Shown here: in pieces, positions 36,066 to 41,746 of the stretch
Position numbering within the stretch: position 1 is the stretch's first letter
Layout: every line of letters begins with the position of its first letter
The notes under the pieces: generated by a model
What the model was told of the DNA's origin: nothing
Seen by the model: the letters and a program-made list of their open reading frames with translations, nothing else
Database searches by the model: none
Program-made: the position numbers and the translations under genes
Assembly: GCF_026155325.1 (NCBI RefSeq)
Contig: NZ_JAPFPW010000016.1
Location: 1-64,000, forward strand
Source: Desulfobotulus pelophilus
Lineage (GTDB): Bacteria > Desulfobacterota > Desulfobacteria > Desulfobacterales > ASO4-4
Reading direction: 5' to 3'
DNA: 64,000 nt

Positions 36066-37097
36066 CTACGAAACCTTTCTGGCTTTGCGGATCTGCTCAA
36101 TAAGGGCAGGGACAACCAGAGAGGCATCGCCGACAATGCCATAATGGGCAAAATTAAAAATTTCTGCATTGGAATCTTTATTAATGGCAACAATGGTTTT
36201 CGCACCGGACATGCCCGTAGTATGCTGCACCGTTCCGGAAACCCCACAGGCCATATAGAGTTCCGGCCTGACAGTCTTGCCGGTCTGCCCGATCTGGCAG
36301 TCATGGGTAATCAGACATGCCTCCACCACCGGACGGGTACCACCGACCTGAGCGTCCAGCTCCCGGGCCAGCTCTTCCAGCTTAGCAAAGGTCCGGGTAT
36401 CTCCGGCTCCCATCCCCACACAGACAATCCTCTCCGCTTCCCGGATATTGATACCACTGTGCTCCCGCTTTTTAACGGAAAGGACTTTCACCGGATCCGA
36501 CGCCTCGTCAATGGAAAGCTCCAGCCGGACCACCTCACCCTCACGGGAAGAATCTTTATCCGGCATTTCCATCACTCCCGGCCGTACGGTGGACATCTGG
36601 GGCCGGTGATCCGGGCAGAGAATGGTAGCCATAACATTGCCGCCAAAGGCAGGACGGGTGGAAACGAGTATTTTCTTTTCCTCATCAATATCCAGATGGG
36701 TACAGTCCGCCGTGCAACCGGTGTGCAGCCGGAAAGAAATACGGGGAGCCAGATCCCGGCCCACGGGGGACGCACCCACAAGCAGTACATCGGGCTTTCT
36801 CTTCCGGGCTTCCTCACATATGATATCCGTATAGAGGCCTGTGCGATACTGGGCCAGAGCCGGATCATCGGCAAGAAGAACAATGTCTGCGCCATATGCG
36901 ATCAGCTCTTCTGCCAGCGCTTGCACATTGTGACCGAGAAGGAAAGCCGTAAGGGGTACACCGAGTTTATCGGCAAGTTTGCGCCCTTCTCCCAGCATTT
37001 CCAGGGAAAGGGTGGTACGGGCCAGGTTGCCGTCCTGCTGCTCCGTGAAAACCCATACTCCCTTGTCATCACTGAAATCTTTTACTGTATCCGTCAT
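36066..37097 (-). CDS. etfA: Electron transfer flavoprotein alpha subunit (bifurcating-type)
   Basis: 343 residues. N-terminal domain, then the C-terminal FAD domain with GAGDTRTFAKLEELARELDA, CGVSGTVQHTTGMSGAKTIV and AINKDSNAEIFNFAHYGIVG. The segment TRPAFGGNVMATI followed by CPDHRPQMSTVRPGVM is the type seen in electron-bifurcating ETFs of anaerobes. It shuttles electrons with EtfB from the adjacent acyl-CoA dehydrogenase. It is the last gene of acd-etfB-etfA, 14 bases after etfB. Confidence 0.95.
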   Translation of the reverse strand: MTDTVKDFSDDKGVWVFTEQQDGNLARTTLSLEMLGEGRKLADKLGVPLTAFLLGHNVQALAEELIAYGADIVLLADDPALAQYRTGLYTDIICEEARKRKPDVLLVGASPVGRDLAPRISFRLHTGCTADCTHLDIDEEKKILVSTRPAFGGNVMATILCPDHRPQMSTVRPGVMEMPDKDSSREGEVVRLELSIDEASDPVKVLSVKKREHSGINIREAERIVCVGMGAGDTRTFAKLEELARELDAQVGGTRPVVEACLITHDCQIGQTGKTVRPELYMACGVSGTVQHTTGMSGAKTIVAINKDSNAEIFNFAHYGIVGDASLVVPALIEQIRKARKVS

Positions 37098-37111
37098 GAT
37101 AACTCACCCTG

Positions 37112-37894
37112 TTAAATAAAATTGTGTTCTTTCAGCTTTTCCACAAGCTTCCGGGCGGATTCTTCAGCATCGCCTTCGAGAATTTCCACCTGTCCCTTGA
37201 CCCGCTTAGGCGTAAACACCTTGCGCAGCCGTGTGGGCGAACCCTTGAGGCCAAAGTTAGCAGGATCGCCGCCCAGGACATCCATCCCCCATATTTCAAT
37301 TTCCTTGGCATAGGCTTCCATGATCATGTCCATGGGCGCAACACGGGGTTCATTCAACTCCTTTTCTGCGGTGATGAGGCAGGGCAGGGGGGCTTCCAGT
37401 TCCCGCACCATATCGCCCATGTTCTGAAGAACCGAGACCCTGCCCCCTTCACACCGAATATTCAGAGCATAGGAACAAAGGGGCAGTTTCAGATAATCCG
37501 CCAGCTCAGGCCCCACCTGTGCGGTGTTGCCGTCCATGGCTTCCACACCGGTTATGACCATGTCAAAATCAGCAATTTTCTGAATGGCAAGGCCCAGAGT
37601 ATAGGCCGTGGCCCAACAATCGGCGCCACCGAACCGGCGATCCGTCAGCAGGATAGCCCTGTCACAGCCCATGCCCAGTGCTTCCCGCAGGGCTTCCTCC
37701 ACCTGAGGCGGTCCCATGGACATGACCGTTACTGTGCCACCGTGGCTATCTTTCAGGGTGAGGGCTGCTTCCAGAGCGTTTTTATCATTGGGGTTGATGA
37801 TACTGGGAAGTCCGGTACGGATCAGTGATCCATTTTCATCCCATGTGACTTCCGTTACGTCCGGGACCTGTTTAATACAGACAATAATGTTCAT
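37112..37894 (-). CDS. etfB: Electron transfer flavoprotein beta subunit (bifurcating-type)
   Basis: 260 residues from ATG 37894 (AAGGA upstream). MNIIVCIKQVPDVTEV start, then ALGMGCDRAILLTDRRFGGA followed by DCWATAYTLGLAIQK and EAMDGNTAQVGPELADYL, which match the EtfB of bifurcating systems (as in Acidaminococcus) better than the housekeeping ETF. In those, EtfB holds a second FAD in place of AMP. Whether bifurcation occurs here is an inference. Between acd and etfA. Confidence 0.95.
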   Translation of the reverse strand: MNIIVCIKQVPDVTEVTWDENGSLIRTGLPSIINPNDKNALEAALTLKDSHGGTVTVMSMGPPQVEEALREALGMGCDRAILLTDRRFGGADCWATAYTLGLAIQKIADFDMVITGVEAMDGNTAQVGPELADYLKLPLCSYALNIRCEGGRVSVLQNMGDMVRELEAPLPCLITAEKELNEPRVAPMDMIMEAYAKEIEIWGMDVLGGDPANFGLKGSPTRLRKVFTPKRVKGQVEILEGDAEESARKLVEKLKEHNFI

Positions 37895-37960
37895 AATACG
37901 TCCTTCAGAGACTCCTTGGGAAACGGCCGAAGGAGTGCCCACGGCCGGTTCCGGATTCTG

Positions 37961-39106
37961 TCAGCGACCGGCCAGATAGGCCATGCCCGCAATGGTTTTA
38001 TTGATTTCAAGACTGGAAGCCACAATGCCGCCGTGCATGGCATTCCGGAAGAGCTTTTCCACCTTATATTCCTTGGAGTACCCATAGGAACCATGAATCT
38101 GAACCGCCATACGGCAGACCTCCTGGGCCATAGGCACAACAAAAACCTTAAGTTCCGCCGAGGGTACCTCGAAGGGTTGTTTCTGATCCTGAAGCAGTAT
38201 GGTTCTGTAAACCATAAGACGGCAGGCATCCACTTTGGTTTTCATTTCAGCCAGCATCCAGGTGAACCCCTGCATAAACCCCAGAGGGAAACCACCGACT
38301 ACACGCTCTTTGCTATAACGGGCCGCTTCTTCCAGAGCACCCTGGGCTCCTCCCACCATCGCCGCACATTGCTGAATACGTTCTCCTGCAATCCACCGCA
38401 GCAGAATTTTGAAGCCCTTACCCTGTTCCCCAAGGATATTGGCTTTGGGTACCCGCACATCCTTGAAAAAGACATCGCAGGTGTCCGCGCCATCAAGACC
38501 CATGAGCTCATAATGACCGGAAAAGGAAATGCCGGGACTGCTTTTATCAACAATGAAGGCTGTGGTATCCTTTTTACTACCCGTAAGGGACAAATCTTTG
38601 GCAAAAAAGACGCCGCAGCCGGGCTTGTTGGCCATGCTGATGAAACGTTTGGTGCCGTTCAGGATAAAATCATCGCCATCGGGCTCCGCCACCATGGTGA
38701 GGGCCTTGGGGTCCGAACCGGTTCCAGGCTCGGTAAAAGCCATACTGGCCCAGGAACTGCCATCACAAAGGGGAGGAACAAATTTCTGCTTCATCTCATC
38801 TGTACCCCAGTAACAGATGGTTTCCGCAACGGAGTTGTTCATAAAAAAGGGAAGCATGGAGGTGGAACCGGTTTTACCGATCTCTTCTGCAAACAGGATG
38901 AGATTAAAATTGGTACTGCCGATTCCACCGAATTCCTTGGGAACATCCATGCCCAGCAACCTTGACTTGGCAAATCGCTGCAGGAGGTCGGGAGGATAGT
39001 CGTTGTGCTCGGCCATGTAGGCATCAATTTTGGTGATTTCTTTTTCACAGAAATCCCGGGCCGTTTTCTGAACCATCTTTTCAAGGGGGGAGAAATTGAA
39101 ATCCAT
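37961..39106 (-). CDS. Acyl-CoA dehydrogenase with an unusual active site
   Basis: 381 residues, full-length ACAD: FTEPGTGSDPKALTM, the mid-domain FAD contact, the helical C-terminal domain, and QIHGSYGYSKEYKVEKLFRN. At the canonical base position, family IYEGTSEI reads IVASSLEI, so the catalytic glutamate is A363. E242 in IAGERIQQ sits on helix G, where isovaleryl- and long-chain-CoA dehydrogenases carry their base, and could substitute. It heads acd-etfB-etfA and is divergent from a dienoyl-CoA reductase. Substrate unknown; it may also be a reductase working with bifurcating ETF. Confidence 0.92.
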   Translation of the reverse strand: MDFNFSPLEKMVQKTARDFCEKEITKIDAYMAEHNDYPPDLLQRFAKSRLLGMDVPKEFGGIGSTNFNLILFAEEIGKTGSTSMLPFFMNNSVAETICYWGTDEMKQKFVPPLCDGSSWASMAFTEPGTGSDPKALTMVAEPDGDDFILNGTKRFISMANKPGCGVFFAKDLSLTGSKKDTTAFIVDKSSPGISFSGHYELMGLDGADTCDVFFKDVRVPKANILGEQGKGFKILLRWIAGERIQQCAAMVGGAQGALEEAARYSKERVVGGFPLGFMQGFTWMLAEMKTKVDACRLMVYRTILLQDQKQPFEVPSAELKVFVVPMAQEVCRMAVQIHGSYGYSKEYKVEKLFRNAMHGGIVASSLEINKTIAGMAYLAGR

Positions 39107-39558
39107 GGCAACTCCTTACATTGGGTTGATTCATAAAAAAAGAGCAGGCAAGCCGGAACAGGGTTTTCTTACCTAGATCAAAAGTTTGAATACATAGCAA
39201 ATACTTTTTACTGCCTTGCGGACAAATCCACCTTTTTTTGATTTTTTTCCATAAAATCAGGAGAAAATACGAGAAAAAATGTTTTTGCACGGCACAAAGC
39301 TAACCACCCATATAGTTTGTATGCAAAAAGATACCAGACTGTTTGTTTCCTGGAATAAAAACAGATATACATTTAAAAAAACAAGAAATAGCATGCTGCA
39401 TAAAACCATGGGCATTCAAAAAATCCCTGAGTCCCTTTCCACGCACTTCTGCCCTTCAATTATGAGCACATACACATAACAAGCGAGAAAGACTTGTTTT
39501 TTTAAAAAACACATACTATTTCAAGGAAAACCTTGACCATTACCTAAATAAGATTTAG

Positions 39559-39575
39559 TTTGTGTACAATATAAT
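39559..39575 (+). promoter_or_regulatory. Operator-like element 1 next to a perfect -10 box
   Basis: TTTGTGTACAA (39559-39569) directly abuts TATAAT (39570-39575). Its exact reverse complement occurs at 39689-39699. No good -35 was found, which fits an activator- or repressor-controlled promoter. Confidence 0.4.
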
Positions 39576-39688
39576 ATTCTTTTCGGAACTCCCTCTTTTT
39601 TACCAGCGTAAACGGACAAAAACCCAAAAAACCGATATTCACGTGACATAAAATTCCTGATCTGGCAAAAAAACAACCGCCAGAAAAT

Positions 39689-39699
39689 TTGTACACAAA
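39689..39699. promoter_or_regulatory. Operator-like element 2
   Basis: TTGTACACAAA, the exact reverse complement of element 1, about 130 bases further on and just before the ribosome site of the dienoyl-CoA reductase gene. Core TGTACA is palindromic. Confidence 0.4.
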
Positions 39700-39724
39700 A
39701 CGTTCTCGCCCAAAGGAGACTTGT

Positions 39725-41746
39725 ATGACAAAAGAACTCAGAGGAATAGACCCCCTGTTCCAGCCCATCCAGATCGGCAGCATGACAGTAAAAAATCGTA
39801 TTTATATGCCTGCCATGCACCTTGCCATGTGTGATAATTATGAGGTTTCCGATCAGGTTACGGCTTTTTATGAAGAAAGGGCCAGAGGCGGTGCCGGTGC
39901 CATCTGCGTGGGCTATGCCTCCGTCAACGAACTTTCCGCCAATATCACCCACATCGGCGCCCACGAAGATGCCCATATTCCCGGCCTCACAAAGCTGGCC
40001 AATGCCATAAAACAGCATGAATGCCGTGCGCTGGTGCAGCTGAACCATGCAGGCCGCTACAACCATTCCATGCTGCTGAACGGCAAACAGCCCGTTGCTC
40101 CGTCTGCCATTGCCTCCAATCTTACCCGTGAAGTTCCCAGAGAAATGACAAAGGAAGACATTAATCAGACCGTGGCGGATTTTGCTGCTGCCGCAGGCCG
40201 TGTCAAAACTGCCGGTTTTGACGGCGTGGAAATCCTGAGCGGCACGGGCTACCTCATCAGCGAATTCCTTTCCCCTTTGACCAACAAGCGGGAAGACGAA
40301 TACGGTGGTCCCTTTGAAAACCGCTGCCGTTTTGCCATGGAAATCTTTTCAGCCATCCGAAAAACCGTAGGACCAGATTATCCCGTTGTAGTCCGCATGA
40401 ACGGCAACGATCTCATGCCCGATGGTATGGGCCGGGTGGAGCTGCGGGAATATGCAAGAAAACTTTCCGATTCCCGCCTTGTGGACGCGGTGTGCATCAA
40501 TGTGGGCTGGCATGAGGCCCGCATTCCCCAGATTGTCACCAGCGTTCCCAGAGGGGTGTATGCCTATCTGGCAAGGGGCATTAAAGAGGTGGTTTCCATT
40601 CCTGTGATTGCCAGCCACCGCATCAACGACCCCAAAGATGCCCGCAGGCTCATTGCCGATGACATGTGCGACATGGTGGCCATGGGCCGCAGCCTCATTG
40701 CCGATTCCTTCCTGCCGAAAAAAACGGAAGAAGGCCGGGAAAATGAACTTATTCACTGCATTGCCTGCGCCCAGGGCTGTTTTGACAACCTCTTTAAATT
40801 CAAGCATGTGGAATGCCTCTGCAACCCGAGGGCAGGCTATGAATTTAAAATGGCTGCGGTTCAGACAGATACGGCTAAAAAAGTCTTTGTCATCGGTGGG
40901 GGGGCCGCTGGCATGAGTGCCGCTCTCGCAGCCAAAGAGAAGGGCCACGACGTTACCCTTTTGGAAGCTTCCAGCCGCCTGGGAGGCCAGCTCTATCTGG
41001 CAGCCGCACCTCCGGGACGGGAAGAATTTGCAGAGCTTGCAAAGGACCTTGCCACCCAGGTGCAGGTGAACAATATCCGGGTCATGCTGAAAACCACGGT
41101 GGATAAGGCCCTGCTGGAAAAAGAAAAGCCCGATGCCGTTATCCTTGCCACCGGTGCGGAACCCATCTCCCCCCCCATTCCCGGTGCAAACCTTCCCCAT
41201 GTGGTGCAGGCCTGGGATGTGCTGGAAGACCGGGCCCATACGGGTAAAAACGTGGTTGTCATCGGCGGGGGTGCCGTGGGTGTGGAAACGTCCATCTTCC
41301 TTGGGGAAAAGGGCACTCTTTCCGGAGAGGAGCTGAAGTTTCTCTTTGTAAACAGGGCCGATGACGTGGACAAACTCTATGAGCTGGCCACAAAGGGCAC
41401 CAAGAACGTAACCCTCATCGAAATGACCCAGTCTGTGGGCAAAGACATCGGAAAATCCACCCGCTGGACCATGCTGCAGGAAATGAAGCGCATCGGTATC
41501 CGCACGGATGTAACCACCAAAGCTCTTGAAATCACAAAAGAAGGCGTAAAGGTGGAAGGCAACGATGGCCTTGAGATGATCCCTGCTGACTCCGTAGTAC
41601 TGGCCGCAGGCTCAAAGCCCGTTTCCGCACTGAAAGAAACAGTGGAAGGCCTTGGCATTTCCTGTCAGGTCATTGGTGATGCGGCAAAAATCGGCCTTGC
41701 CTTTGACGCCGTTCATCAGGGGTATGCTGCTGGAAGGGCTGTGTAA
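39725..41746 (+). CDS. 2,4-Dienoyl-CoA reductase / Old Yellow Enzyme-type NADH:flavin oxidoreductase
   Basis: 673 residues. N-terminal FMN-binding TIM barrel (FQPIQIGSMTVKNRIYMPAM; ALVQLNHAGRYNHS; SPLTNKREDEYGGPFENRC), a 4Fe-4S binding cluster HCIACAQGCFDN...CLCNP, then two dinucleotide-binding motifs: FVIGGGAAGMSAALAAKEKG (FAD) and VVVIGGGAVGVETSIFLGEKG-like (NADH). This is the FadH/enoate reductase architecture that reduces conjugated double bonds in acyl-CoAs or enoates. ATG 39725 follows AAAGGAG. Divergent from acd-etfBA, so the two transcripts probably act in one acyl-CoA pathway. Confidence 0.94.
   Translation: MTKELRGIDPLFQPIQIGSMTVKNRIYMPAMHLAMCDNYEVSDQVTAFYEERARGGAGAICVGYASVNELSANITHIGAHEDAHIPGLTKLANAIKQHECRALVQLNHAGRYNHSMLLNGKQPVAPSAIASNLTREVPREMTKEDINQTVADFAAAAGRVKTAGFDGVEILSGTGYLISEFLSPLTNKREDEYGGPFENRCRFAMEIFSAIRKTVGPDYPVVVRMNGNDLMPDGMGRVELREYARKLSDSRLVDAVCINVGWHEARIPQIVTSVPRGVYAYLARGIKEVVSIPVIASHRINDPKDARRLIADDMCDMVAMGRSLIADSFLPKKTEEGRENELIHCIACAQGCFDNLFKFKHVECLCNPRAGYEFKMAAVQTDTAKKVFVIGGGAAGMSAALAAKEKGHDVTLLEASSRLGGQLYLAAAPPGREEFAELAKDLATQVQVNNIRVMLKTTVDKALLEKEKPDAVILATGAEPISPPIPGANLPHVVQAWDVLEDRAHTGKNVVVIGGGAVGVETSIFLGEKGTLSGEELKFLFVNRADDVDKLYELATKGTKNVTLIEMTQSVGKDIGKSTRWTMLQEMKRIGIRTDVTTKALEITKEGVKVEGNDGLEMIPADSVVLAAGSKPVSALKETVEGLGISCQVIGDAAKIGLAFDAVHQGYAAGRAV

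Follow-up and report, generated by a model that had tools for sequence, protein, structure and literature searches.

Within the 64,000-nucleotide stretch of Desulfobotulus pelophilus contig NZ_JAPFPW010000016.1 analyzed here (the window), three intact open reading frames on the minus strand encode an acyl-CoA dehydrogenase (ACAD; P0001) and the two subunits of an electron-transfer flavoprotein (ETF), in the order acd-etfB-etfA, with acd first and spacers of 66 bp (acd-etfB) and 14 bp (etfB-etfA). P0001 lacks the glutamate found in the J-K loop of the family and carries a glutamate on helix G, E242, while the ETF has sequence features of the bifurcating type. The reading that we favor, at a probability of roughly 0.45, is that the complex is a bifurcating enoyl-CoA reductase, in which electrons from NADH reduce ferredoxin together with a beta-substituted, bulky or conjugated enoyl-CoA; we infer the flavin content, the direction and the substrate. 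If true, an enzyme with an opened substrate pocket joins the known bifurcating enoyl-CoA reductases, and the position of the ACAD base can shift again while the fold and the ETF partner persist, a relocation so far described for few other members of the family. A wider claim, which we consider somewhat unlikely, is that a further independent relocation of the ACAD base combined with bifurcation gives the first such reductase for beta-branched, aryl or conjugated enoyl-CoAs, compounds that would serve sulfate reducers as electron sinks saving energy as reduced ferredoxin. No publication on this acd-etfB-etfA operon appeared among the search listings of an open-licence library.

In a local alignment of P0001 with Clostridioides difficile Bcd (5ol2), the residues I-V-A-S-S-L-E-I lie opposite I-Y-E-G-T-S-E-V. 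Since this motif alignment is gap-free, the column of the canonical glutamate corresponds to A363, as the first-pass annotation had proposed from the family motif IYEGTSEI, and V362-A363 take the positions of the family Tyr-Glu. The column of E242 (in GERI) holds Gly in Bcd and CarC, Thr in Thermus medium-chain acyl-CoA dehydrogenase (MCAD) and Glu in an annotated isovaleryl-CoA dehydrogenase (IVD; L086), while the canonical column holds Glu in Thermus MCAD and Ala in the same IVD. By alignment, E242 is thus at the helix-G base position of IVD and long-chain acyl-CoA dehydrogenase (LCAD), which agrees with the earlier proposal. The AlphaFold2 model of P0001 (mean pLDDT 91.7) has residue 242 within a long predicted helix (231-267), whereas residue 363 belongs to the loop that connects helix 348-358 to helix 366-380. 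The same layout, with the base on helix G, is described for LCAD and IVD in PMC11153573, and in IVD a Gly-Ala in place of the MCAD Tyr-Glu leaves room for the acyl branch (PMC12369846). PMC11153573 names LCAD and IVD as the sole known exceptions to the base position; benzylmalonyl-CoA dehydrogenase is added as a further one by PMC11659651. Moreover, two other ACADs of the D. pelophilus genome (L002 and L003) have Glu in the helix-G column, the canonical one being occupied by Gly or Thr. Of the idea that the base placement is unusual, the loss of the canonical glutamate therefore stands, while a helix-G glutamate is already known as an alternative, and the swap in P0001 is less unusual than first suggested. 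Its distinctive feature is that the swap occurs in a lineage beside a canonical enzyme, apart from IVD in the tree, and accompanied by its own ETF.

After removal of seven duplicates, the group comprises 29 distinct sequences, the window included. A363 is kept in all 29, and E242 in all 28 that cover the column (L064 does not), which puts the swap beyond chance; residue 362 is Val, Thr or Ile, followed by Ala363. Of the other 28 distinct loci, 26 share the gene order acd-etfB-etfA, with the ACAD or EtfA in a few cases cut by the contig end, and the exceptions are L037 and L071; the operon proposed in the first-pass annotation is upheld. Two subgroups can be told apart by identity to P0001, clade I at 62-91% and clade II at 53-57%, and L037 stands apart from both at about 39-40%, with no ETF gene within the 17 kb read. 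This conservation bears on the alternative that E242 is non-catalytic and that the ordinary alpha,beta chemistry has been lost, leaving a 1,4-type dehydrogenase or reductase, or a decarboxylating, desulfinating or other enzyme of the ACAD fold. Three clade II loci (L050, L064 and L065) carry a second ACAD directly after etfA with Glu in neither column, which is counted for this alternative, but E242 substitutes exactly for the lost glutamate and is invariant, as expected of a working base, and we regard loss of the chemistry as quite improbable. For annotation, the absence of the catalytic glutamate need not point to an inactive enzyme.

The group is sparsely distributed. Among 291 genomes of the class, 10 have close relatives at E <= 1e-85, counting the genome itself and a ~40% match (L022/L037); the phylum sample of 395 genomes gave 5, again with the genome itself counted, and the other two genomes of the genus gave only a 34% match. 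A scan of named genomes yielded 37 loci; 22 of these can be assigned to the swap group, either from both motifs or from a truncated fragment (L038-L057, L071 and fragments in L064/L065; 23 if both fragments are counted). Hosts of group loci include Desulfoluna butyratoxydans, D. limicola and D. spongiiphila, and most others are metagenome-assembled genomes (MAGs) of Deltaproteobacteria or Desulfobacterales, together with L055, titled Pseudomonadota, and L056, titled Ca. Methanomethylicus. Searches of viral contigs gave one weak, partial match to P0001 at 34% and none with the alignment as query, and a phage link was rejected. Plasmid records matching P0001 number 1880, with less than 60% identity among the 60 matches listed.

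Phylogenetic trees were built from rows cleared beforehand of duplicates and fragments and, in later trees, of 26 long-branch or near-duplicate rows, including L002 and L003; they contain one IVD representative, no LCAD, and long branches. Two earlier versions were partly spoiled by a misread row, L099, and one of them also by L101; the tree without L099 is used as the reference. In this tree, computed without the trait columns, the 22 swap rows form a single clade (support 100/99). L058_10, an enzyme of a Bathyarchaeota MAG with Gly on helix G, the canonical Glu, and Val already at position 362, is the sister of that clade (97/91). A grouping of the swap clade with IVD was rejected in the reference tree (p-AU 0.026) and in a separate tree (0.040); the value in a tree containing one misread row was 0.0055. 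Because the clade lies beside a canonical-Glu enzyme and the IVD grouping is rejected, the relocation of the base looks independent of IVD. Moreover, since L058_10 combines Val 362 with the canonical glutamate, widening of the pocket may have preceded the relocation. Because the two key columns distinguish L058_10 from P0001, the pair allows a clean test. The L058 locus (L058:1345-11146) itself holds several ACADs and two adjoining EtfB/EtfA pairs; in another of its ACADs, L058_9, helix G carries Asp and the canonical position Ala.

The closest known systems are C. difficile Bcd-EtfAB (5ol2) and CarCDE, the caffeyl-CoA reductase of Acetobacterium woodii (6fah), which, as here, combine an ACAD with EtfB/EtfA of the bifurcating type and are the best PDB matches of all three window subunits. 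In Bcd and CarC, the helix-G residue is Gly and the J-K loop carries Tyr-Glu, in contrast to the Glu and Val-Ala of P0001; the canonical glutamate of such enzymes (IYEGTSE) is replaced by A363. P0002 differs from CarE as well: it matches only from CarE residue 61 on, lacks the N-terminal part with its iron-sulfur domain, and consists of two ETF Pfam domains only. IVD, which partners with a canonical ETF, is 26% identical to P0001 and forms no common clade with it; the IVD residue pattern (helix-G Glu plus Ala or Gly at the canonical place) is present in P0001, while common descent with the single IVD representative was rejected by the trees. The two share the helix-G Glu, Ala at the canonical Glu and a small residue for Tyr (1ivh, L086; PMC12369846). 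LCAD (8w0t), also 26% identical and outside the trees, uses Glu291 on helix G as the base (PMC11153573), the role predicted here for E242. An engineered counterpart of the swap, judging by the structure titles, is the T255E/E376G double mutant of straight-chain MCAD (1egd, 1ege).

The ETF motifs noted in the first-pass annotation are consistent with the bifurcating type. The best PDB matches of EtfB (P0003) are the C. difficile protein (1.3e-74) and CarD (4.3e-71), with ETFs of the 1o94/1efv kind at 2.5e-25 or weaker, and those of EtfA (P0002) are CarE (1.8e-99) and C. difficile (8e-88), with the human protein at 8.2e-34. Gly122 of P0003, the small residue of beta-FAD-binding ETFs, aligns with C. 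difficile Gly122; among the 32 EtfB rows covering this column, duplicates included, 28 have Gly and 4 Ala. From the motif, it would correspond to Gly123 of A. fermentans, a residue given as invariant in bifurcating ETFs (PMC12630350). Arg148 of P0002, in TRPAFGGN, aligns with C. difficile EtfA R136, which sits at N5 of beta-FAD (PMC5691135); the roles of the beta-FAD residues are described for the C. difficile and Fusobacterium nucleatum ETFs (PMC5691135, PMC12630350). This Arg is kept in all 15 clade I EtfA rows. Two other EtfB of the same genome lack DGNTAQVGP and have Ala (L076) or Leu (L078) in the Gly122 column.

These signs have to be weighed against the possibility that the ETF is a plain carrier, with AMP in place of beta-FAD or with beta-FAD and no bifurcation, and passes electrons from the ACAD to the quinone pool. 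Transfer from ETF to menaquinone is the usual proposal in sulfate reducers and syntrophs (PMC5109826). Moreover, the bifurcating residue set is not universal in the group, since all 13 clade II EtfA rows covering the Arg148 column have Lys there, and their GxR motif near alpha-FAD is without Arg where covered; clade II ETFs may behave differently. The window proteins, however, keep Arg148, Arg255, Gly122 and DGNTAQVGP and match bifurcating ETFs better than canonical ones by many orders of magnitude. We regard a plain carrier as decidedly unlikely, and the sequence signs suggest that the window ETF is of the bifurcating type.

The swap, its conservation, the operon and the bifurcating signature are read from sequence; the electron route and the enoyl-CoA reduction are modeled on Bcd-EtfAB. 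In the favored bifurcating reductase, the complex would be built like Bcd-EtfAB and CarCDE, with the carboxylate shifted from the J-K loop (A363, beside V362) to helix G (E242). The space freed by Val-Ala would admit a beta-substituted, bulky or conjugated acyl group, a suggestion drawn from IVD, where the change from Tyr-Glu to Gly-Ala makes room. The FAD of EtfB would accept a hydride from NADH and split the electrons, one going to ferredoxin and the other via the EtfA FAD to the ACAD FAD. Once two rounds are complete, the enoyl-CoA would receive a hydride from the ACAD flavin at C-beta and a proton from E242 at C-alpha. Neighbors that handle C=C bonds (OYE-type, NMO/FabK-like and dienoyl-isomerase-like) are counted for this reading.

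Several observations weigh against it. According to PMC5109826, sulfate reducers mostly oxidize acyl-CoAs, with the ETF passing electrons to quinone, and the Rnf-like genes of the genome (contigs C36 and C18) score under the model cut-offs. The neighbors are variable, and no CoA ligase shared across the loci was found. The Lys of clade II EtfA disturbs a simple picture, and Gly122 alone is a weak test because L076 has Ala there. No named family could be assigned: the acryloyl-CoA reductase models gave 293.5/640, 355.2/600 and 233.6/475 bits (score/cut-off), and family naming by NCBIfam was rejected because all three subunits match below cut-off only; the best-scoring models for P0001 and P0002 are those of AcrCAB from Clostridium propionicum. 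The best PDB match of P0001 is hardly informative on its clade, because the unrelated ACAD L003 of the same genome also hits CarC/Bcd best, and it was discarded as clade evidence. Structure comparison gave Z 46-50 for all 50 among the matches listed; this range does not separate Bcd, short-chain acyl-CoA dehydrogenase, IVD and LCAD, and the ranking was rejected as a discriminator.

The same proteins could instead form an oxidizing dehydrogenase for branched, aryl or unsaturated acyl-CoA, confurcating or working with reduced ferredoxin/NAD+ partners, with E242 acting as base in the manner of IVD and LCAD. Both of these enzymes, with their helix-G glutamate, oxidize branched or bulky acyl-CoAs (PMC11153573, PMC12369846), sulfate reducers (Desulfoluna) are among the named hosts, and L047 has genes for a branched-chain amino-acid-type ABC transporter and an AMP-forming acyl-CoA ligase behind its ETF genes. 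However, passing electrons from an acyl-CoA near -10 mV (the crotonyl/butyryl-CoA value; PMC5691135) to NAD+ would demand much reduced ferredoxin, and three other ETF pairs of the genome could handle ordinary oxidation. We consider the oxidizing direction rather unlikely. Coordinates of the operon and of the other features are collected in Table 1.

Table 1. Features of the window and of related loci
Feature	Coordinates or loci	Strand	Remarks
Acyl-CoA dehydrogenase P0001, 381 aa	37961..39106	-	Pfam ACAD N, M and C domains over cut-off; V362-A363, E242
EtfB P0003, 260 aa	37112..37894	-	Pfam ETF domain over cut-off; DGNTAQVGP, Gly122
EtfA P0002, 343 aa	36066..37097	-	two ETF Pfam domains; Arg148 in TRPAFGGN; without N-terminal ferredoxin domain
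FMN/FAD ene-reductase, divergent, FadH/BaiCD (OYE) architecture	39725..41746	+	BaiCD model 510.6 bits, cut-off 825; start read from the sequence
Divergent promoter region	39107..39724		between acd and ene-reductase; two exact TTTGTGTACAA copies
Clade II loci with Lys EtfA	L034-L036, L049-L054, L056, L057, L064, L065		
Second ACAD group	L050:13662-14834, L064, L065, L061, L066-L070, L072-L074		

Besides the ETF genes, no neighbor is common to all loci. OYE-type reductases adjoin the operon in four (the window, L026, L030 and L045), and the window ene-reductase is likely linked to the operon because it is divergent in L026 and L030 too. An NMO/FabK-like gene is present in two distinct loci (L028 and L033), and L033 also has a dienoyl-isomerase-like crotonase beside the operon (298.5 bits, cut-off 308). 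MarR-type genes occur near the operon in six distinct loci, three members being checked as MarR. Clade II has HMG-CoA-synthase-like, thiolase and OB-fold genes instead (six distinct loci).

The two exact TTTGTGTACAA copies in the divergent promoter region lie in opposite orientations, at 39559-39569 (+) and 39689-39699 (-). With one mismatch permitted, an equal count was reached in 17 of 100 shuffles, and the pairing may be due to chance. At L071:8388-8811, EtfB residues 1-53 are fused directly to EtfA residues 251-340, reflecting either a deletion or an assembly fault. The second ACAD group, ~33% identical to P0001, has Asn on helix G and Leu or Ile at the canonical Glu, hence Glu in neither column; its 12 rows fall in one branch, and its members stand directly behind etfA in three loci (L050, L064 and L065). 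Two further ACADs, L100 and L103, share 37-38% identity with P0001; they too have Glu in neither column, with Ser in the helix-G one and Gly in the canonical one.
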